From Botrytis cinerea B05.10 (taxonomy: Eukaryota; Ascomycota; Leotiomycetes; Helotiales; Sclerotiniaceae), in the NCBI RefSeq assembly GCF_000143535.2, contig NC_037313.1, positions 2,239,501 through 2,303,500 of the forward strand: a stretch of DNA of 64,000 bases, in the 5' to 3' direction. The notes below the pieces were generated by a model. It saw nothing but the letters and a program-made list of their open reading frames with translations, did not search any database and was not told where the DNA came from. Shown here piece by piece: positions 30,886 through 64,000 of this stretch. Each line of letters opens with the position of its first letter. Positions within the stretch are counted from its first letter, which is position 1. A program made the translations under genes and the position numbers.

Positions 30886-33365
30886 ATGGTTCAATCGTAA
30901 GTGCTGCCCATCTGCCATTGTCCTCGACAGCTATTAATCGTGTCAATGATAGATCCGTTCTTGGTTTCCCACGCATGGGAGCTCTCAGAGATCTCAAGAA
31001 AGCTACTGGTAAGATTTGTTACCTCGCACTGCTACCCCACATGGAGTACTAACAGATGTCAACAGAGGCATACTGGGGTCAAAAGATCTCTCAAGCTGAT
31101 CTCCTCGCTGAGGCAAAGAGACTTCGTCTTGCTCACTGGAAGATCCAAAAGGATGCCGGTGTCGATATCATCCCATCCAACGACTTTGCTCTCTACGATC
31201 AAGTTCTCACTCACATCCAAGACTTTGGTGTAAGCATTCCAATTGCATCTGCAGATTTATGTGTAACGTCGGTCTAACTCTTCTGTCTGCAGGCTACCCC
31301 AGAAAGATATACCAAGCATGGTCTCGACCCAATCGATCAATACTTTGCCATGGGACGTGGTCACCAACGTGATGGCGTCGATGTTCCATCCTTGGAGATG
31401 GTAAAGTGGTTCGACTCTAACTACCATTACGTCAAGCCAACTCTTCAAGACAACCAATCTTTCAAGCTCACTTCGGACCCAAAGGCTGTTCGTGAATTCA
31501 AGGAGGCCAAGGAGGCTGGTATCACCACCCGCCCAGTCTTGGTTGGTCCAGTTTCTTTCCTCCACCTCGGAAAGCCAGACCGTGGACAATCCGTTGACCC
31601 AATTGATCTTTTGGACAACCTTCTCCCAGTTTACATTGAGCTCCTTAAGCAACTTAAGGCTGCTGGTGCCGAGACTGTTCAAATTGATGAGCCAACCCTT
31701 GTCTTCGATCTTCCATCCAAGACCAAGGCTGCTTTCAAGCCAACCTACGAGAAGCTCGCCAGCTTAGGTGATGAGATCCCAAAGATTGTCTTCGCCACAT
31801 ACTTCGGTGATATCGTTCACAACATTGATGCTCTCCCAACTGACATCTATGCTGTTCACGTTGATTTGGTCCGCAACCCAGAGCAATTGGAGACTGTCAT
31901 CTCCGCTTTGGGATCCAAGACCATCTTGTCCGCCGGTGTTGTTGATGGACGTAACATCTGGAAGACCAACCTCAAGCGTGCTATTGAGACTGTTGAGTCT
32001 GCCATCCAAAAGCTCGGAAAGGACCGTGTCATTGTTGCCACTTCCTCCTCCCTCCTCCACACCCCACACACTCTTGCAAGCGAGAAGAAGCTTGACCCAG
32101 AAATTGCTGATTGGTTCTCTTTCGCTTCCGAGAAGGTTGTTGAAGTTGCCATCATCGCTAAGGCTGTCACTGAAGGACCAGCTTCCGTCAGTGCTGAGCT
32201 CGAGGCCAACGCCAAGTCCATTCAAGCTCGTGCTTCCTCCAAGAGAACCAACGACCCCAAGGTCAAGGAACGTCAATCCAAGATTGTCGAGAAGGATTAC
32301 AACAGAATCTCTGAATTCACCGAACGTATTGCTCAACAACAAAAGGCTTTGGGTCTTCCCCTCTTCCCAACCACCACCATCGGTTCTTTCCCACAAACCA
32401 AGGAGATCCGTATCCAACGTAACAAGTTCACCAAGGGTGAAATCACTGCTGAGGAATACGAGAAATTCATTGAGAAGGAGATTCAAGATGTTGTCAAGGT
32501 TCAAGAAGAACTTGACCTTGATGTCTACGTTCACGGTGAGCCAGAACGTAACGACATGGTTCAATACTTCGGTGAACGTCTCGATGGTTATGCCTTCACT
32601 ACCCACGCATGGGTTCAATCATATGGTTCCCGTTGTGTTCGTCCTCCTATCATCGTTGGTGACATCTCCCGTCCAGCACCAATGACTGTTAAGGAGTCCA
32701 AATACGCTGTCTCCATCTCCAAGAAGCCAATGAAGGGTATGTTGACTGGTCCAATCACCTGTTTGAGATGGTCTTTCCCTCGTGATGATGTTCATCAATC
32801 CGTCCAAGCTGAGCAACTTGCTTTGGCTCTCCGTGATGAGGTTGTTGATCTCGAGGCTGCTGGTGTCTACGTCATTCAAGTCGATGAGCCAGCTCTCCGT
32901 GAGGGTCTTCCTCTCCGTCGTGGAAAGGAGCGTGAGGCTTACCTTGACTGGGCTGTTAAGTCTTTCAGACTTTCCGTCTCTGGTGTTCAAGATTCCACTC
33001 AAATCCACTCTCACTTCTGTTACTCTGAGTTCCAGGATTTCTTCCACGCCATTGCTGCTCTTGATGCTGATGTTCTCTCCATTGAGAACTCCAAGTCTGA
33101 CGCTAAGCTCCTCAAGGTCTTTGTTGACGAGGCTTACCCACGTCACATTGGTCCAGGTGTTTATGACATTCACTCTCCTCGTGTTCCATCCGAGCAAGAG
33201 ATCAAGGACAGAATTGAGGAGATGTTGCAATTCCTCAAGCCAGAGCAACTTTGGATCGATCCTGATTGTGGTCTTAAGACTCGTCAATGGGCTGAGACTA
33301 AGGCTGCTTTGACCAACATGGTCAACGCTGCCAAGTTTTACCGTCAAAAGTATGCCAAGGCATAA
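30886..33365 (+). CDS. MET6: Cobalamin-independent methionine synthase
   Basis: Four coding exons: 30886-30896 (11 nt), 30953-31008, 31066-31229 and 31293-33365. All introns are GT-AG, and the spliced product is 767 aa, the usual length. The joined N-terminus reads MVQSSVLGFPRMGALRDLKK, the family signature. The enzyme transfers the methyl group of 5-methyltetrahydropteroyl-polyglutamate to homocysteine in the cytosol. The N-terminal barrel covers about 1-390. The catalytic barrel begins at LPLFPTTTIGSFPQTKEIR and carries the Zn/homocysteine segments IQVDEPALREGLPLR and QIHSHFCYSEFQD (His/Cys ligands), ENSKSD, and the final Cys ligand in IDPDCGLKTRQW. Codon use is strongly biased (AAG, CCA, GCT, TTC), unlike neighbouring genes, which suggests very high expression. 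Long minus-strand frames across it are antisense shadows. Confidence 0.97.
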
Positions 33366-44890: not shown

Positions 44891-45875
44891 ATGACCACCA
44901 CACTCACCGAACAAGCTCCCTCCGAGCACATCACCAAGCTCGAAACCAACCCCACTACACCTCACGATATTAAAGGAGTTCTGAATTATTACCTTGATCC
45001 AGAAGATGGAAGTCCCCCAGAGCCCAATTACGTGAACAAGCCTAACACTTATGATCGTCCCGTGCATTCAGTGGAGGTAACTGTTCACGATATCCGCGGC
45101 TCGGAAGACCAGTATACATTGGACACCACCGGTTTCCAGGTCGTGAAACATGTTAGTCGAGAGAAAGATTTCGTGGATGAGGAGAAGATCAAAAGTGATT
45201 ACTACAAAGAAACAGAAGAATTGTTAAAAAGAGAGTCAGTATTAGCATAGCTCCGCGTGCTCGCTTCCAAATTGGACAGACTACTAACAAGGAAATAGAA
45301 CCGGAGCATCCAAAATTTTCATCTTCGACCACACCATCCGACGCGAAGCTCTTGATACGAGAGCCCCAGCAGCTTCATCCACTGATACAATCAATAAGAA
45401 TCCCGCTCCAGTTGTTTTCCGCGGTCCTGTTCAACGCGTTCACATCGATCAATCCTATGCCGCCAGTCCCCGCCGCGTAACCCACCATCTTCCTGAAGAA
45501 GCTGAGAGACTCCTCAAAGGACGTTTCCAAATCATCAATGTTTGGCGACCCATCAAGACAATCCTTAAAGATCCCCTTGGTGTTGCGGCTGCCAACTCAG
45601 TTGATGAAAAAGATCTTGTTCCAATCAAACTTATTTATCCCGACCGCGAAGGAGAAACTTACTCAGTGCGTCATGCTCCGGGCCATAAATGGAACTATTT
45701 GTATAAGCAGACACCTGAGGAGGTGCTTTTGATCAAGTGTTTTGATAGTAAGACTGATGGAAGAGCGAGACGTGTTCCGCATAGTGCGTTTGTGAATCCC
45801 GAACATGAGGGAGAGAAGAAAAGAGAGAGTATTGAGGTTAGGGCATTGGTTTTCCACCCCGATGATACAGAATAG
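44891..45875 (+). CDS. CmcJ/NvfI (AsaB/GA4-desaturase-like) family oxygenase
   Basis: Exons 44891-45234 and 45299-45875. The 64-nt intron (GTCAGT...CTACTAAC...ATAG) restores the conserved junction LLKRETGASKIFIFDHTIRR, giving 306 aa. Family hallmarks are the N-terminal VLNYYLDPEDGSPPEPNYV, then FDHTIRR (about 124-130), PVQRVHIDQSY with the His-x-Asp iron-binding pair (about 163-165), NVWRPIK, and a distal His in RVPHSAF. Conserved Arg residues nearby may bind the cosubstrate. Proteins of this group act as, or resemble, Fe(II)/2-oxoglutarate-dependent oxygenases and desaturases. They often sit in secondary-metabolite clusters. The substrate is unknown. It converges on the UstYa-like gene 0.85 kb downstream, which makes a shared pathway plausible but unproven. 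Confidence 0.88.
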
Positions 45876-46728: not shown

Positions 46729-47630
46729 TCAGAGTATTGGAGAAGAATAATTCATCCCCTCCGGACAAAACTTGTAACGCTCAATAGTGGGGAAATTTGG
46801 AGTGCTTTCATTAATAGCCCGGAAGCAGCCTGAATGTGCTACAGCCCAGCCTCTCAGCTTCCCCCAATCGTTACACATTCTGGTCTGACCAATCCCCGAT
46901 GTCGGATGCTCCTTTCCTTTCTCAGAGTTTAGTCGACCGGTATATCTTGGTGTGTCATCGGCATTACACATAACTTCTTCACGGAGTACATTGAGGCAAT
47001 GAGATACATGCTCGAGCGGATATGTTAGGGGCACATTATCGTATGCCTCGAGAACTAAGTTTCGAACAAGGTGCTACCAAGATGTGTCAGCGACATAAGA
47101 TTTGAAGTAATGATTATGCCTACAAGACAGTGAAGGTTGTGGAAGCCGTTCAGAATATAGATACCCTTCGAGTGATCCCAGGGCCAGCGCTGTGCCGGAA
47201 GTAGTCCTTTCGACTTGGCGTACTCGTTTGTCAAAGCAACGAGTCCGACTTCCGAATCAAGATCCGGAGAGCTCCAAGCTGCATCTGCGATTGTTCTATT
47301 CTCATTGGTAAACAATTTGTCTATGATAAAAGGAGTTGATACGTTTCGCACAAGACCAGCTGCCAGCTATGTTAGCATATTTTACCAGTATTTAATAGCT
47401 CTCAGCAACATACTGTATTTGGTCGGTGTTAATACGGGTATCGACATCAATTGTAAGGTCTGGTGAACCCATAGCGCATTGAACAACAGCGAGAAGAATA
47501 GGAAAATGCCGAGAGCAAAAGAAACTCCTTTGAAGAAACGAAGCTGTCGTTGTAGATTGAGATGCATCAAAGTCTCGGTATTATGATCTATATCGTCTTG
47601 TTGCACAAGTTTATACTCATGCAGAGCCAT
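46729..47630 (-). CDS. UstYa-family (DUF3328) oxidase, RiPP cyclisation/oxidation candidate
   Basis: Exons 47414-47630, 47124-47359 and 46729-47073, with introns of 54 and 50 nt, give 265 aa. A short cytosolic region is followed by one transmembrane anchor (about 36-58: VSFALGIFLFFSLLFNALWV). The lumenal domain has AAWSSPDLDSEVGLVALT and then both UstYa hallmark HxxHC motifs, in GFHNLHCL (ending exon 2) and EHVSHCLN (exon 3). CNADDTPRYTG and CNDWGKLRGWAVAH follow, as in the family. UstYa/UstYb-type proteins act in the secretory pathway on dikaritin RiPP precursors (ustiloxin, phomopsin, asperipin), forming oxidative crosslinks; others act on non-ribosomal metabolites. The putative precursor gene lies 1.7 kb away, transcribed divergently, so this is the best candidate tailoring enzyme. 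Confidence 0.92.
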
Positions 47631-48530
47631 TGTGGAAGGACGTGAGTAGGCTTCATCGCCCCATGAGTCAAGTGAAACTTATAGAGGGCCTCGAGAGGAC
47701 CTCCTTCTCTATGGCACACCTAATTCAAATACTTTTTTCCAAACATGTTGAAGGATGTGTTGAGTAGATAATGCATGGTTCTATTGATCCCTCACTTTTT
47801 CAAGGTTAAAGCGGCCAGCTCAATTTTTGTACCGCATTTCAAACCCCTACAGACAAGGCCCAACGCAAATATGTAAGCCGGAGAATAATTAAAGCGACCG
47901 CCAAAATGAAACCTATGCGTAAATACAAGTCCGCAACGGTATCTATATGTTGTCTTGCAGATCTTGCCCAGTTTGATGCAACTTGCCCATATGTATGTTG
48001 GTGGCGATGTCATGCAACATGTATGAATATCGGCCTAATAATCCTCGGTATACCCCTATCGATAGCCGAGAATGGCAGGTCAGATAAGAAGGATCTTAAT
48101 CTTACGTAGAATTAGCCCGACCCCAGTTGTTGGTGTGAACCGTGAGATAAGAATCTTCAAGTTGAATTAAGCCTTGTGGCCCGCTCTTGGAGAATAGACG
48201 AGCATTTTATCTGACACTAAACACGGTAAGTATTTCCCCTCTTACGTCGCATTTACCCCAGCTTGGAACTAGGATACCGAAAACACGGGTAGGAATTCCT
48301 TCAACACAACCAAGGAAACTACCGAGGCCTTGTTGGTACCCCTCACCCCCATATCTTATTTAAATGACACAAATCCTGAAAACTAATTCAACCTCTATAC
48401 AATCGTACGAAAAAAAAAAAGAACTCTATAGTACTCTATTTTTCTAGCCCATAGGCTTTGTTGTTCTAATGTTCTTACAAACACACATACTATAAGTTAT
48501 CTCGACTTCGACAATTAATTTAAATTTGCA
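47631..48530. other. Intergenic, 0.9 kb, promoter side of the UstYa-like gene
   Basis: Holds the UstYa upstream region and the leader of the frameshifted ORF (a poly-A run at about 48410-48420). Frames at 47792-48013 (-) and 47906-48109 (+) overlap each other antisense and match nothing. Confidence 0.45.
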
Positions 48531-48993
48531 ATGGCTTCGCACCACTCTGAACTTCCTTATCGGTTCATTACACCCTGAATACGCATTAGAATCTCATGCA
48601 ACAGTTAGAATCCTCGAGAGATCTTCTCCCTTTCAGGGTTCGTTTGACCGAGAGAATTGTCATGATTTGGTAGATGTTCAGTCATCCTACTTATCCAGGG
48701 GCTTGAAGAATGGTTCTCGCATCCATGCCTTTATCGATATGAGATTGTTAAGGAAGATGTATATCAAGGAGCAATATAGACATCTCATTCGACAGTCGTA
48801 TTTCGCACACTACCCCATGTTCGGGCTTAAGACGCGGACCCGAGTGTACGCGGGTTCAATTGGTACTCTCAGCAAGATATTTGTTGATCGCAATTGCTGC
48901 TTTACCAAACGACAGGGCATGTTTGGATTTTCCTATTTTTCTATTGCATCAGCGTTGACGTTGCTTAACAGCGAGTTATCACATTGCAGCTAG
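48531..48993 (+). pseudogene. Unknown ORF, probably frameshifted near its start
   Basis: The ATG at 48531 gives only 15 codons (MASHHSELPYRFITP) before TGA at 48576. Another frame is open through the same place and runs on for about 139 codons from PEYALESHATVRILERSS to the stop at 48993, without any usable ATG near its start. Skipping one base at about 48576 would join the two smoothly (...RFITP then EYALES...). I recognise no domain. The C-terminus is Cys/Phe/Ser-rich and hydrophobic (FGFSYFSIASALTLL). It could be a dead gene, a sequencing indel or a fortuitous frame. Its position between the UstYa-like gene and the peptide precursor makes it worth checking as a cluster component. Confidence 0.35.
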
Positions 48994-49320
48994 GATTCTC
49001 TTCAAAGTTAATTTTACTTTGCCTCCTTGTACCTTTCGTTTACTTTTTGGAGTTGCTGTGACGTGTTGGCTGCATCTTCTTTGATATTAGGCACACTCAC
49101 CTCCCTAGCGGCCGGTGACACAATTGCTCGATTGAGAAGCTCACAGAGTGTGCTGGAAGTGGCAATCAACATTTAAAGTTTCGAATAAAGATCTGCATAT
49201 ATAAGTAGATACGGGTACCAAGAGATTGGCACAGATGTATTCCATTGAAGCAAATCATACCATAAGTTTATCGGACGAAATCAAGCTGTTCAGCAACACG
49301 TTAGATTCAAACCAAGAATC
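48994..49320. other. Promoter region of the RiPP precursor-like gene
   Basis: 327 bp between the unknown ORF and the precursor ATG. It contains the TATA box at 49198-49204 and nothing else recognisable. Confidence 0.5.
49198..49204 (+). promoter_or_regulatory. TATA box of the RiPP precursor-like gene
   Basis: TATATAA about 120 bp upstream of the ATG at 49321, in the expected orientation and distance for a fungal core promoter. Confidence 0.55.
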
Positions 49321-49693
49321 ATGTTATTCTCCACACTTATTATTTCTTCTATGGCGGCCCTCGCAGTAGCAAGCCCCCTGAGAACCCGCTCTGGTACGTG
49401 CTCGTCCCTAGAAGATTATGGTCTACTCATGACTTCTTTTCATATCTATTCCGAATAACTCTTTCTAACATCACATTCTAGGAAATGATGTTGCTGTCGA
49501 TGAAAGCTCACCTGCCCCTTTAATTGAATGGTCAAACACAAAAAGAATTGCAAGGACGACTGCCGACGAAGAAGCTTCACTTGCCCCAATAATTGAGTGG
49601 GCTGATACGAAGAAGACCGCAAGAACTGTCTCCAACGAGGAAGAAATAGCACCTACGCCCCTTATTGAATGGTCAAACACGAGAAAGGCTTAG
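49321..49693 (+). CDS. Dikaritin-type RiPP precursor candidate: signal peptide plus three Kex2-bounded IEW repeats
   Basis: Exon 1 is 49321-49393. An 88-nt intron (GTACGT...TTCTAG) follows in phase 1, and exon 2 is 49482-49693, giving 94 aa. Residues 1-18 are a clear signal peptide (MLFSTLIISSMAALAVAS). Three repeats follow: APLIEWSNT-KR, APIIEWADT-KK and TPLIEWSNT-RK, beginning near residues 36, 59 and 83 (period 23-24). Each ends in a dibasic pair, and acidic/Thr-rich spacers (TTADEEASL, TVSNEEEIAP) separate them. Repetition of one core with dibasic ends in a secreted precursor is the design of UstA, PhomA and AprA and of other kexin-processed peptides, where Kex2 cuts in the Golgi. The UstYa-family gene nearby supports oxidative modification of the core. 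Trp replaces the Tyr/Phe of known cores. KK and RK are weaker Kex2 sites, so only some copies may be released. Product and modification are inference. Confidence 0.8.
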
Positions 49694-51628: not shown

Positions 51629-53146
51629 TCACGCCGCTGTTCTGGTTCGTTTATACACATTGCTATCAATTTCCGAGGTGTTCCTTTTCCTGGACAAGCC
51701 CTTACTGCTTTTCTCGTCAACCAATATTCGAAATTGACAATCAACTTTATAGTACGTATACTGCTCCTTATTACCTGCACGGGCAGCACTGCCTAGTTTT
51801 AGAAGATCGTCCATCAAAAAAGTCATTTCGGCTCCACGTTGCAATATGTTGATTGAATTGATGAGCCCAGCTATATCTGATACAAGCAATCGACGCGTTG
51901 AATCTTGCAACTCGGAGGTGCTGCTTGAATCTGTCGGGTCGTAGAACAACAGCGCAGAGCACCAGGGTCTAATGGCATCGAACTTTGCAACATTAGACTC
52001 ACGAACACTTTCACCAAGACTAAGTAACTTGGAAGTTAGTCCTCTATGTCCTAAGACATTTGGATTTAGTTTCGCTGCTGCATCCAACCACTCCTTAAAT
52101 TCTGACCCAAGAGCCTCCGATGTAGCGCGTTGTCTGAGTTGCTGGCTTACTTCTCGAATATCGGCAAGGTATTCTTCATCCAGTTCTCGAGCATTCGATT
52201 CCAATTGGTATTCGTTATCCAGTTGTCTAGCATTGGACTCGGCGAGGTATTCCTCATCCGAGTTCACCTCTATATCAAGATATGTTTCAACATGTCCTGA
52301 ATCCTTGTGATTATTGTCAAGGTGTGAGTCTCCTGATAGTTCTCCACGGTCAGGCGAGAAAATACTGTGGCGCGCCGGTATAGGATCTACATATGCGGTC
52401 AATGGCGAATGGAGAACCTGCACTTCCGTCGGCCTTTGTGCATCGTGCGCGGTGTATAGTGGCGGTGATTGATCCTGAGGTTCCTCATAGTTAAAATACG
52501 TCCAGTTCACTAGCATAATGCCTTGTTGAGAGTATATCTTCCTCATGTCAGATTCGGAGATCTCTGCACTTGTATCATACAAGCGCTCGCGAATCTCTTT
52601 CAGATGTTGTCGCGCATAATCGCTAGGTCTAACATATACCTCAAATTTCTTCATGAGAGATAAAGACCTGATTGCACGGATCAATTTGCTGGAGGTTTCA
52701 TTGAAGGGGCAGATAGTTGTAGATTCCTTCTCTTTTTGAACAACAAATCCTGTAAATCGAATATCAAATTTTAAAACAATTACACGCTCTAGATTGCTTA
52801 TACCGGCTTCGTGAAGGGCGGATGCATCAAGATGAGATAAACCATTGAGCTCTTGTATCGGAAGATCCTTCGAGGCATATTCAAAGTCAACATGTGGCGG
52901 GATAGCCAATAACATATATATATGATGACGCTTGCCAGAAATCTTGATAGCCACCTTAAGTGAGAACTGTATGTGAATATGTCGTTTAGAATCGCAGACC
53001 ACTTTCATGATAATGTCGACATTTTTTTTGTTGCGAGGCATACAAGAACCTAATGTCCAACAGCTGTCGTCCTCATCAATCCACTTTATATATACTCTCT
53101 CCGTAAGGAGACTTTTCAACCCAGGTATTTCGATCGGAACCGCCAT
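51629..53146 (-). CDS. Hypothetical 505-aa protein with short internal repeat and C-terminal basic signal
   Basis: A single-exon ORF starting at the ATG at 53146 (MAVPIEIPGLKSLLTERVYI). The N-terminal 200 residues look like a folded domain (ERVYIKWIDEDDSCWTLGSC, then IQFSLKVAIKISGKRHHIYM) that I cannot assign. A linker follows, then a short acidic tandem repeat (about 299-327: AESNARQLDNEYQ / LESNARELDEEYLA). A helical region (about 340-480) contains SEALGSEFKEWLDAAAKL. The C-terminus has basic clusters (SRKRNTSEIDSNVYKRTRT) that could serve as a bipartite nuclear localisation signal. No enzyme motif is visible. It lies just downstream of a minisatellite that occupies its promoter side. It could be a member of a lineage-specific expanded family. 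Confidence 0.65.
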   Translation of the reverse strand: MAVPIEIPGLKSLLTERVYIKWIDEDDSCWTLGSCMPRNKKNVDIIMKVVCDSKRHIHIQFSLKVAIKISGKRHHIYMLLAIPPHVDFEYASKDLPIQELNGLSHLDASALHEAGISNLERVIVLKFDIRFTGFVVQKEKESTTICPFNETSSKLIRAIRSLSLMKKFEVYVRPSDYARQHLKEIRERLYDTSAEISESDMRKIYSQQGIMLVNWTYFNYEEPQDQSPPLYTAHDAQRPTEVQVLHSPLTAYVDPIPARHSIFSPDRGELSGDSHLDNNHKDSGHVETYLDIEVNSDEEYLAESNARQLDNEYQLESNARELDEEYLADIREVSQQLRQRATSEALGSEFKEWLDAAAKLNPNVLGHRGLTSKLLSLGESVRESNVAKFDAIRPWCSALLFYDPTDSSSTSELQDSTRRLLVSDIAGLINSINILQRGAEMTFLMDDLLKLGSAARAGNKEQYTYYKVDCQFRILVDEKSSKGLSRKRNTSEIDSNVYKRTRTAA

Positions 53147-53155
53147 GTCGTGCAC

Positions 53156-55065
53156 TATACTTGTGATTAGCTATATAGAGATAAAGGACAATTGCATTGG
53201 GAAGAATGATCCCACGCTATGCGTGTATCCCACCCACCCAGGCTAATAAGAGAGCAGCCTTGACTCTATGGCACCGAAAGTATCAGGGCGTCCCCAAGCG
53301 GCAGATGCTGAGGAACCGTAACCACGGAGTAGTATATACTATCAGGGTGTCCCCAAGCGGCAGATGCTGAGGAACCGTAACCACGGACTCGGTGCAAACC
53401 GAGTCAGGGTGTCCCCAAGCAGCAAATACCGAGGAACCGTAACCACGGAGTTGTATATACTATCAGGGTGTCCCCAAGCAGCAAATACCGAGGAACTGTA
53501 ACCACCGAATTGTATGTACTATCAGGGTGTCCCCAAGCGGCAGATGCTGAGGAACCGCAACCACCGACTCGATGCAAACCAAGTCAGGGTGTCCCCAAGC
53601 AGCAAATACCGAGGAACCGTAACCACGGAGTTGTATATACTATCAGGGTGTCCCCAAGCGGCAAGTACCGAGGAACCGTAACCACCGACCTCTCTGCGAA
53701 GTTTGGAAAGACGCTAAAGGAGTTATTGTGCAAGAATAATACATATATAATAGTGCAATGACCGACATAGGTGGAGGTGATAGAAGTGAAGATAGAAATG
53801 ATGGAATAGAGAAAGACCCCAAAAAAAGTAGGTGGGAGGGCATCTATGTACAGAGTGTATACGATTTCAGGTGGAGCCGATCTTAGCCTTATTTCATATC
53901 CAACGCCCCTGTATGAAGGTTAAGGTAAATCTTCTAAAATCCTCTTTTAATAAAATCTTGCTGTTTTTAGAGATTTTACTGCTGCTTTGAGTTTTTCGAA
54001 TAGATATTGAGCTGTCCCCCTCCAAAATGCAATACTTGAAGCTTTTTCTTGCTTTCTATCAATTTTAATGATTTTATAGTATTTGAAGTATTTGAAGCTT
54101 TCCATAGGTTCTAAATAAGCGTTAGATAGGATTTCGAATTAAAACTCAGTGAAAAATAGTGATTGTAAATAAAATGTGAATAAAACATAACTTTTACAAT
54201 ACTTTCGCCAGCCGAATTTCACTATATAAATGTTCAACCAGCGTGGTGATTTGATTAGTCCAAAGCCTAAAAGTGGAGGAAACACGATCGCTTTTTCTTG
54301 TGTTTCACAATACTTATCTACCTTTCTATAAGTTGTGTTACATCAAGGCCCCACAGCAACTTCCTTCCGTCGGCTGAATTTGTAATCCGATTATACTCTT
54401 ACTGGTGTATTTGATTGGTGAGAAACAAGTGCTCTATGGTTGTATTCGATAGCAACGAGATGAAGCATTACTAGGTACTACTCGATTACCTATCATCCTC
54501 ATAACCATTGATCCCTCTGCTTGATCGCTTCAAACATGAACCTTATCTAATCCTCTGCCACTTCCACGTGACCAGAGAATCGACAACGTCACACAAAGCT
54601 ATTTGCAGTATTGAACGAGCAAGAGAATCTCTCAACTGGTGGCTTCCTTCCTCTGTATCCCTATTCTTTCTGAAGCATTGGGAATTGGTGAAATTGGACA
54701 AGCCGTGCCCTCTCACAGCATTCTACATTCCAGGGTCCAGCGAGCAAGATTGTGAACTAAGGGGAAACGCCTTCGTTGGGAACTAGAAGAATACGACACT
54801 ATAGTGAGGATGAATGGGAAGGCCTGTTCCTAGAAGGAGATCCAACATGCTCTTCCACATTGAACGCAGGCGGTGGTGTAGGTGCCGTATTTACGAAACT
54901 CAAAAAGTGACATATCTAAAGTTGCGTTTTTCGGAGTACTAACGCATTTTTTGTCACATTTAAATATCTCCAAGGGTGTCCATGAGCCGCGAGAGAATTA
55001 CGCATAAGATATCCAACATTACCTTCATTGGTACTTCCTTCCCATATCCTGCTTCCCAACTCCGG
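53156..55065. other. Intergenic, 1.9 kb, minisatellite then AT-rich sequence
   Basis: Contains the 60-bp minisatellite (separate entry). 53900-54500 is AT-rich with no gene. An ATG ORF at 54508-54786 (+, 92 codons, Leu/Cys-rich) is not recognised and not called. Confidence 0.45.
53283..53702. repeat. 60-bp minisatellite, 7 copies, two alternating unit types
   Basis: Units start at 53283, 53343, 53405, 53464, 53523, 53585 and 53644, each beginning CAGGGTGTCCCCAAGC and containing GAGGAACCGTAACCAC. Two tail types occur: a 59-60-bp type ending in GTATATACTAT and a 62-bp type ending CTCGGTGCAAACCGAGT, whose end is an inverted repeat. The order is short, long, short, short, long, short, variant. 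The array begins about 140 bp upstream of the 505-aa gene's ATG. Confidence 0.93.
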
Positions 55066-63100: not shown

Positions 63101-64000
63101 CTCCGACCAGTAGGAGACGCGTACGCGATGAGAATTATGGATCGATCAATACTCATCTAATCATCTACTCATCTAATCACCCACCTTATACCTTATACTT
63201 CGTTCGTACAGACGGGGGGACCGATAAACATTTTATATATCTAGCTCGCATGCATGCAGATACGGATAGACTTGTGTTCTTCGAGTAATGATTAATGATT
63301 AATGATCCCATCAGCACCCGCTGTCCATTCACGATTCTTACCCCTATCTTCGCTCTCATTGGAAGAGAAGCACGGAACGCGCAGAACGCTCTCGCACCTT
63401 CGTATGATCATTGGTTCCATCCGCACAAACGTGAGGATATTACTAACCCCTGAAGAGACAATAACATAGCCTCTCAAAAACGAGCAATCCATCCTCCAAG
63501 CTTTTGCGTTCCAAGGTTCCGATGACTTTGCAGGGTCAGTTGCGGTGAGATCCTCTTGGAGACCTGGGTTGTTAGCTCTGTACCTGCATAACACCCATGT
63601 GGTTTGGAACCGCGCCGCCTGGGTGTGAAATGTGGCAAGCAAAGCGAGAAGAAAAAAAAGACTTTTTTTCCCTTTTCTTTCCCGCAGCGTTATAATGGAG
63701 AATGGCACCATGCCATCGTAAGCCATACAAGACCCCTTCCCCATGGATCCATCCTTAACCCATTTTATTCTCCTTGGACCAAGTAGGTAGTAAACGAACC
63801 AGGAACCCCCCCTTCATCCATGTTCAATTCATAATTAATCCCACTTGTCCAGGGTTCCACTCATTTTTTTCTGTGCCCACCCTCCCCGTCCGTTTTGCCC
63901 ATTTCCTTTTAATTCTCCTATAGCGAGGAGCACCGCACCCTTCCTCATCCTTTCTTTAAAAGATTCCTCCACCCTCCTTTTCCAACACAAGATCTTCCTT
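59469..64000. other. Intergenic to window end, 4.5 kb
   Basis: No gene I can defend. It contains the GATT microsatellite (60087-60232), a CA run (about 60430-60455), and two adjoining ATG ORFs at 60936-61217 and 61210-61473 (+), overlapping by ATGACTGA, of unknown character. There is an AGGT run at about 62925-62945 and a GCATGCATGC palindrome at about 63248. The last 200 bases are C/T-rich with AAAAGATTCC just before the edge, resembling the promoter/leader of a + strand gene starting beyond the window. Confidence 0.4.
60087..60232. repeat. GATT tetranucleotide microsatellite
   Basis: About 23 perfect TGAT/GATT units (60087-60180), followed by a 50-bp interrupted tail with CTGATGAT and GACGGATT variants. 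Confidence 0.95.

Follow-up and report, generated by a model that had tools for sequence, protein, structure and literature searches.

The 64,000-nucleotide stretch of the Botrytis cinerea B05.10 genome analysed here (the window; C4:2239501-2303500) holds a two-exon gene for a repeat-containing peptide precursor and, divergently from it, a UstYa-family oxidase gene (Table 1). The UstYa gene has a second oxidase gene, of the CmcJ/NvfI type, as its direct neighbour, tail to tail at a distance of 853 bp. Farther out, Pfam recognised a methionine synthase frame, and a B. cinerea methionine synthase is listed as Bcin04g06570 in the accessible text of PMC7043344.

Table 1. Features of the locus and its surroundings, in window positions
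Feature	Position	Strand	Basis
Methionine synthase frame	31278-33365		Pfam
CmcJ/NvfI-type Fe/2-oxoglutarate oxygenase gene, two exons	44891-45875	+	Profile match, structure-relative search
UstYa exon 3, second motif HVSHC, stop	46729-47073	-	Splice model, motif check, PF11807
UstYa exon 2, first motif HNLHC	47124-47359	-	Splice model, motif check
UstYa exon 1, hydrophobic membrane stretch	47414-47630	-	Splice model
Intergenic region, divergent UstYa and precursor starts, 1,690 bp	47631-49320	.	Gap measured
Precursor exon 1, signal-peptide-like start, then PLRTRSG	49321-49393	+	Splice model, aligned relatives
Precursor intron, 88 bp, GTACGT...TTCTAG	49394-49481	+	Same junction-spanning sequence in annotated 94-aa relatives
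Precursor exon 2, APLIEWSNT-KR, APIIEWADT-KK, TPLIEWSNT-RKA, stop	49482-49693	+	Splice model, repeat scoring
Weak transporter match, below cut-off	63292-63813		
Farther neighbours: amino-acid permease, RasGEF, HET domain			Pfam

Splicing out 49394-49481 turns the precursor gene (49321-49693) into an open frame of 94 aa, just as an earlier sequence-only reading of this DNA had proposed; three alternative splices are likewise open and retain the repeats. The N-terminus, judged by eye, has a hydrophobic stretch followed by AVA-S. The three near-identical segments described in that reading also held up. A detector that requires three similar 9-mers with a basic pair after each (threshold 25) gave a weakest pairwise BLOSUM62 score of 36, a value that none of 20,000 shuffles of the mature-part residues attained (best 6). 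When the basic pair is not required the array scores 38, and 300 shuffles gave no score above 15. The array is far above residue-shuffle chance. A Pfam search with the precursor returned no match, and a search of the genome for paralogs matched only its own two exons and no second copy. Tyr is absent from the whole precursor sequence, and Trp is the sole aromatic residue of the core. Comparison with the alpha-pheromone core motif ruled out an ascomycete alpha-pheromone precursor, as there is no Cys and no pheromone-like core. Trimming by Ste13 was given no weight: X-P-X-P stands before [LI]IEW in most copies, and these X-P pairs sit well downstream of the cleavage sites, unlike Ste13 dipeptides, which directly follow a Kex2 site; dipeptide-wise removal from the predicted cuts cannot reach there.

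Two protein searches with the precursor gave lists of 10 and of 13 clusters, together 13 different ones, from Botrytis/Botryotinia species, Monilinia laxa, M. fructicola, M. fructigena and Ciborinia camelliae, and proteins named Botrytis cinerea matched at 99% (P0001) and 93% (P0003). The precursor is therefore conserved in Sclerotiniaceae. These relatives carry the names ‘hypothetical’ or ‘uncharacterized’ in several genomes, so annotators do find the gene, contrary to the suggestion that gene finders may miss it. Nor does the core copy number vary as had been anticipated, being three in each full-length relative seen. In a 14-row alignment the invariant positions include L20, R23, P35, L38, W41 and R49. 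Conservation by position class was calculated over 10 relatives after dropping P0009, P0095 and P0096, each of them cut short or passing into other sequence after copy 1 or 2. Mean identity was 0.86 for the core, 0.82 for the signal region and 0.73 for the spacer, and the core versus spacer difference (p = 0.004) is indicative only, since the rows are closely related.

Several relatives depart from the common form. The B. tulipae cores are degenerate (LIKW and INEW), the B. globosa precursor stops after copy 1, and copy 2 reads PLIEWRYA in Ciborinia and LLER in M. fructigena. The annotated precursors of B. fragariae and B. porri (P0006, P0007) break off immediately ahead of the third core's Trp, reflecting either an annotation effect or true loss of the last copy. 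Degeneration in B. tulipae, B. globosa, B. fragariae, B. porri and M. fructigena would suit a decaying or silent locus whose precursor or UstYa gene is out of use. In this genome, however, the precursor and UstYa genes are both intact, and most differences between the repeat copies are synonymous (copy-versus-copy pS 1.00, 0.58 and 0.97; pN 0.16, 0.05 and 0.16), a comparison over 8 codons only; we consider decay very improbable indeed.

The dibasic pairs said to follow each segment are present as KR, KK and RK, but they are unequal. The first pair alone is a canonical Kex2 site; KK and RK suit Kex2 poorly, and the KK after core 2 counts as weak. The accessible text of PMC6339444 gives KR or RR as Kex2 sites, KK less so. 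Among the relatives used, a basic pair follows core 1 in 9/10 and core 2 in 9/10, and of the 8 that extend to the pair after core 3, only 3 have RK there. Kept in all 10 are the LxxR after the signal region, a pattern used as an expanded Kex2 motif in PMC8528282, and the [KR]xxR after each inner core. At the sequence level LRTR↓S and KR match the Kex2 motif well. KKTAR↓T matches partially (its basic P4 and its Ala at P2 both lie outside the motif as set out in the available part of PMC8528282), yet its Arg is present in 10/10. The best-kept candidate Kex2 sites in the relatives are LxxR and [KR]xxR. After entry of the 94-aa precursor into the secretory pathway, a Kex2-type protease would cut after the conserved arginines of LRTR, KR or KRIAR, and KKTAR, and would thereby release three acidic peptides, each some 20 residues long and with the core, P-[LI]-I-E-W-[SA]-[ND]-T, at its end.

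The UstYa model runs from 47630 to 46729 on the minus strand with introns at 47413-47360 and 47123-47074. Its 265-aa product is longer than that of any other among the 19 open splice combinations and matches PF11807 (E 3.2e-25, 89.7 bits, cut-off 25). Both HxxHC motifs, HNLHC and HVSHC, are present, in agreement with the earlier description of a two-motif UstYa gene some 1.7 kb away in divergent orientation. No sequence relative was found among solved structures at E <= 1. The nearest paralog in the genome lies at C6:917949 (42% over one exon), and the 10-kb stretch around it (L036) contains no repeat array over threshold. Between the UstYa and precursor genes, a 165-codon open frame (48496-48993, plus strand) has no Pfam or NCBIfam match and is either a chance frame or a degraded gene. 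A sigma-70-type scan of the same intergenic region gave no excess over shuffles, the motif not being meaningful for a fungus.

From 722 candidates, the search for UstYa homologs listed 80 proteins. They include a cluster of 20 members, named by its representative B. deweyae (93%), and, further, B. paeoniae, Stromatinia cepivora, Lachnellula (60%), Glarea (51%) and others. The S. cepivora relative has 210 aa and an incomplete second motif, and the protein searches with the precursor found no precursor from that species. No named Monilinia, Ciborinia or Sclerotinia protein is among the 80 homologs listed, a negative weakened by cluster-representative names, unnamed matches, a length filter and possible missing annotation. 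The precursor is present in Monilinia and Ciborinia, and within these listing limits the absence of a named close UstYa relative there speaks against obligate pairing. It would fit a precursor that is an unmodified secreted Kex2-processed repeat protein (KEP), serving in signalling, surface coating or host interaction, from which Kex2 frees linear peptides and beside which UstYa lies by chance. The retention of the cores in those genera and the lack of Tyr in the precursor both fit such a protein, an alternative that we take seriously but hold to be rather unlikely in view of what recurs elsewhere in the genome.

We searched the whole genome (42,630,066 bases, 18 contigs) for PF11807 and obtained 44 exon-wise matches, grouped into 25 places: this locus, 23 others taken as 10-kb stretches, and C4:34647, which was left out. 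Repeat arrays over the threshold of 25 occur in 5 of the 23 other stretches (L016, L017, L018, L022 and L029), a count that covers the UstYa stretches and the window, has no random-region control and concerns open frames, not proven genes. Residue-shuffled frames exceeded the threshold in 0 of 14,080 cases, and the 64-kb window holds no array over threshold besides the precursor. Gaps between array and UstYa match at the five places are 949-2,929 bp, a range that includes the 1,690 bp seen here.

The arrays at these five places are diverse. At L017:6487-7074(-) (C15:681986-682573), 949 bp from a UstYa match, ten copies are built around [AS]TN/SN-x-FYAVQ and separated by KK or KR, which makes this a second, Tyr-rich candidate precursor. 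L016:8212-8619(+) (C7:406511-406918) lies 2.9 kb from the genome's strongest UstYa match and carries about nine copies of KREAELSYVNS, in which EA/EP dipeptides follow KR. Eight HHTEAQIAA copies without an aromatic residue lie at L018:8232-8894(+) (C16:742731-743393), 2.0 kb from UstYa matches, and an array of KRFVPTII[PQ]YKDY at L022:9402-9896(+) (C16:1142001-1142495), 2.6 kb from UstYa matches. At L029:2724-2939(-) (C3:652223-652438), 1.9 kb from a UstYa match, KESAAADDAGLAKRAEAAPWY occurs in three copies and includes a Trp-Tyr pair. Like the precursor, all five stand 0.9-2.9 kb from a UstYa match. By eye none resembles PLIEWSNT in sequence. Four have Tyr in the repeat, and the array without aromatics resembles the di-histidine type of PMC7329392.

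Published frequencies allow this adjacency to be put in context. According to the accessible text of PMC7329392, DUF3328 genes are found near 22% of 7,878 repeat precursors (n = 1,758), most often at the next gene, and for 78% the 15 nearest genes include none with DUF3328. Tyr occurs in 65.6% of repeats with DUF3328 and 38.2% of those without, an enrichment, whereas Trp occurs in 20.5% and 24.5% respectively and is not enriched. The large share of precursors without a DUF3328 neighbour, like the lack of Trp enrichment, suits an unmodified secreted peptide; the recurrence of UstYa adjacency with the same spacing at 5 of 23 other places tells against it. Taken with the 5/23 recurrence, these frequencies indicate that adjacency favours a functional link, and that the Trp core adds nothing to the case. 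Nor do they support the idea that a Trp core falls outside known UstYa-linked precursors: Trp repeats beside UstYa genes are a class already in print (PMC7329392).

The neighbouring oxygenase was modelled with an intron at 45235-45298, one of four open models. Against NF041278 its second-exon frame scores 193.4 bits (cut-off 80) and its first-exon frame 54 bits; its nearest solved relatives are 7eus, a 2-oxoglutarate-dependent dioxygenase (E 1.1e-46), and NvfI. It is a possible second tailoring enzyme of the peptide. Alternatively, it might tailor some other small molecule together with UstYa, with the precursor a bystander. The two oxidase genes do adjoin, and the CmcJ/NvfI family has five matches at three places only in the genome. 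Cyclochlorotine, a non-ribosomal product, offers a parallel. UstYa-family proteins act on it too, by hydroxylation and chlorination (PMC12048977). Against this, a Pfam scan of 50 window pieces (48 open frames and 2 spliced models; the window has 89 frames of at least 100 codons) recognised no PKS, NRPS or terpene synthase, and therefore no substrate source is in sight among the pieces scanned. We judge this explanation quite improbable. The same scan recognised no tyrosinase, peptidase or SAM methyltransferase. A 513-codon open frame at 51629-53170 on the minus strand has no Pfam or NCBIfam match.

On balance we lean, with modest confidence, towards a dikaritin-like RiPP locus: a small one, known in kind, whose core lacks Tyr. 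This is the best reading because a real repeat precursor stands beside a UstYa gene, the precursor is conserved in Sclerotiniaceae, and such adjacency recurs. The dikaritin assignment of the sequence-only reading is thus upheld as to the arrangement of the genes; that UstYa acts on the precursor peptide is a step we infer. The absence of a named Monilinia, Ciborinia or Sclerotinia UstYa homolog, the lack of Tyr, and the fact that no tyrosinase or peptidase was recognised nearby count against it. In this dikaritin-like reading the UstYa oxidase would modify the core through a cross-link or hydroxylation, Trp being the likeliest site because it is the sole aromatic residue, and the CmcJ/NvfI-type oxygenase may supply a second oxidation. 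A fuller version, in which UstYa oxidises the Trp in the Tyr-free P-L-I-E-W-[SA]-[ND]-T core of a Sclerotiniaceae RiPP and the Fe/2-oxoglutarate oxygenase oxidises that core further, giving a cross-link or oxidation new to dikaritins, with Kex2-type release at xxR and not at dibasic sites, seems to us doubtful.

Small and conserved, the locus offers a test of whether Tyr-free cores are substrates of UstYa oxidases, in a fungus, B. cinerea, that permits gene removal. A modified Trp would extend the chemistry of the UstYa family; an unmodified one would show that UstYa adjacency alone over-calls RiPPs. Such over-calling would be of consequence, since a published genome table for Botrytis cinerea contains many ‘fungal-RiPP-like’ regions, as far as the accessible part of PMC13290904 goes. 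The locus had been put forward as undescribed. We found no description of the peptide in the literature searched, mostly titles and abstract openings, a scope outside which lie the supplementary lists of PMC7329392 and PMC6339444 that may hold the precursor.

Among known systems, KEPs (PMC7329392, PMC6339444) share with the precursor a signal-peptide-like start, short repeats and, as candidates here, basic cleavage sites; they differ in that only the first pair here, KR, is canonical, and LxxR and [KR]xxR are the best-kept sites. Kex2-processed pro-domain (K2PP) effectors, as described in the available text of PMC8528282, also have LxxR shortly after the signal peptide, but in the precursor short repeats follow and not one protein domain. 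The dikaritins ustiloxin, phomopsin and asperipin-2a have a secreted multi-core precursor, Kex2-type sites and an adjacent UstYa/DUF3328 gene, an arrangement that the locus appears to share; in asperipin-2a that gene is single, as it is here (PMC7329392). The working definition of PMC9632046 is a DUF3328/UstYa gene close to a signal-peptide and repeat precursor, and here the PF11807 gene lies 1,690 bp from a repeat precursor whose putative signal peptide was judged by eye. Unlike these dikaritins, the locus has only three copies and a core with Trp and Glu but without Tyr, the residue cross-linked in ustiloxin, phomopsin and asperipin; the scan of 50 pieces, moreover, recognised no tyrosinase, peptidase or methyltransferase nearby. 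Victorin is cyclised at Phe (PMC9233826), and this analogy suggests that Tyr is not universal in dikaritins.
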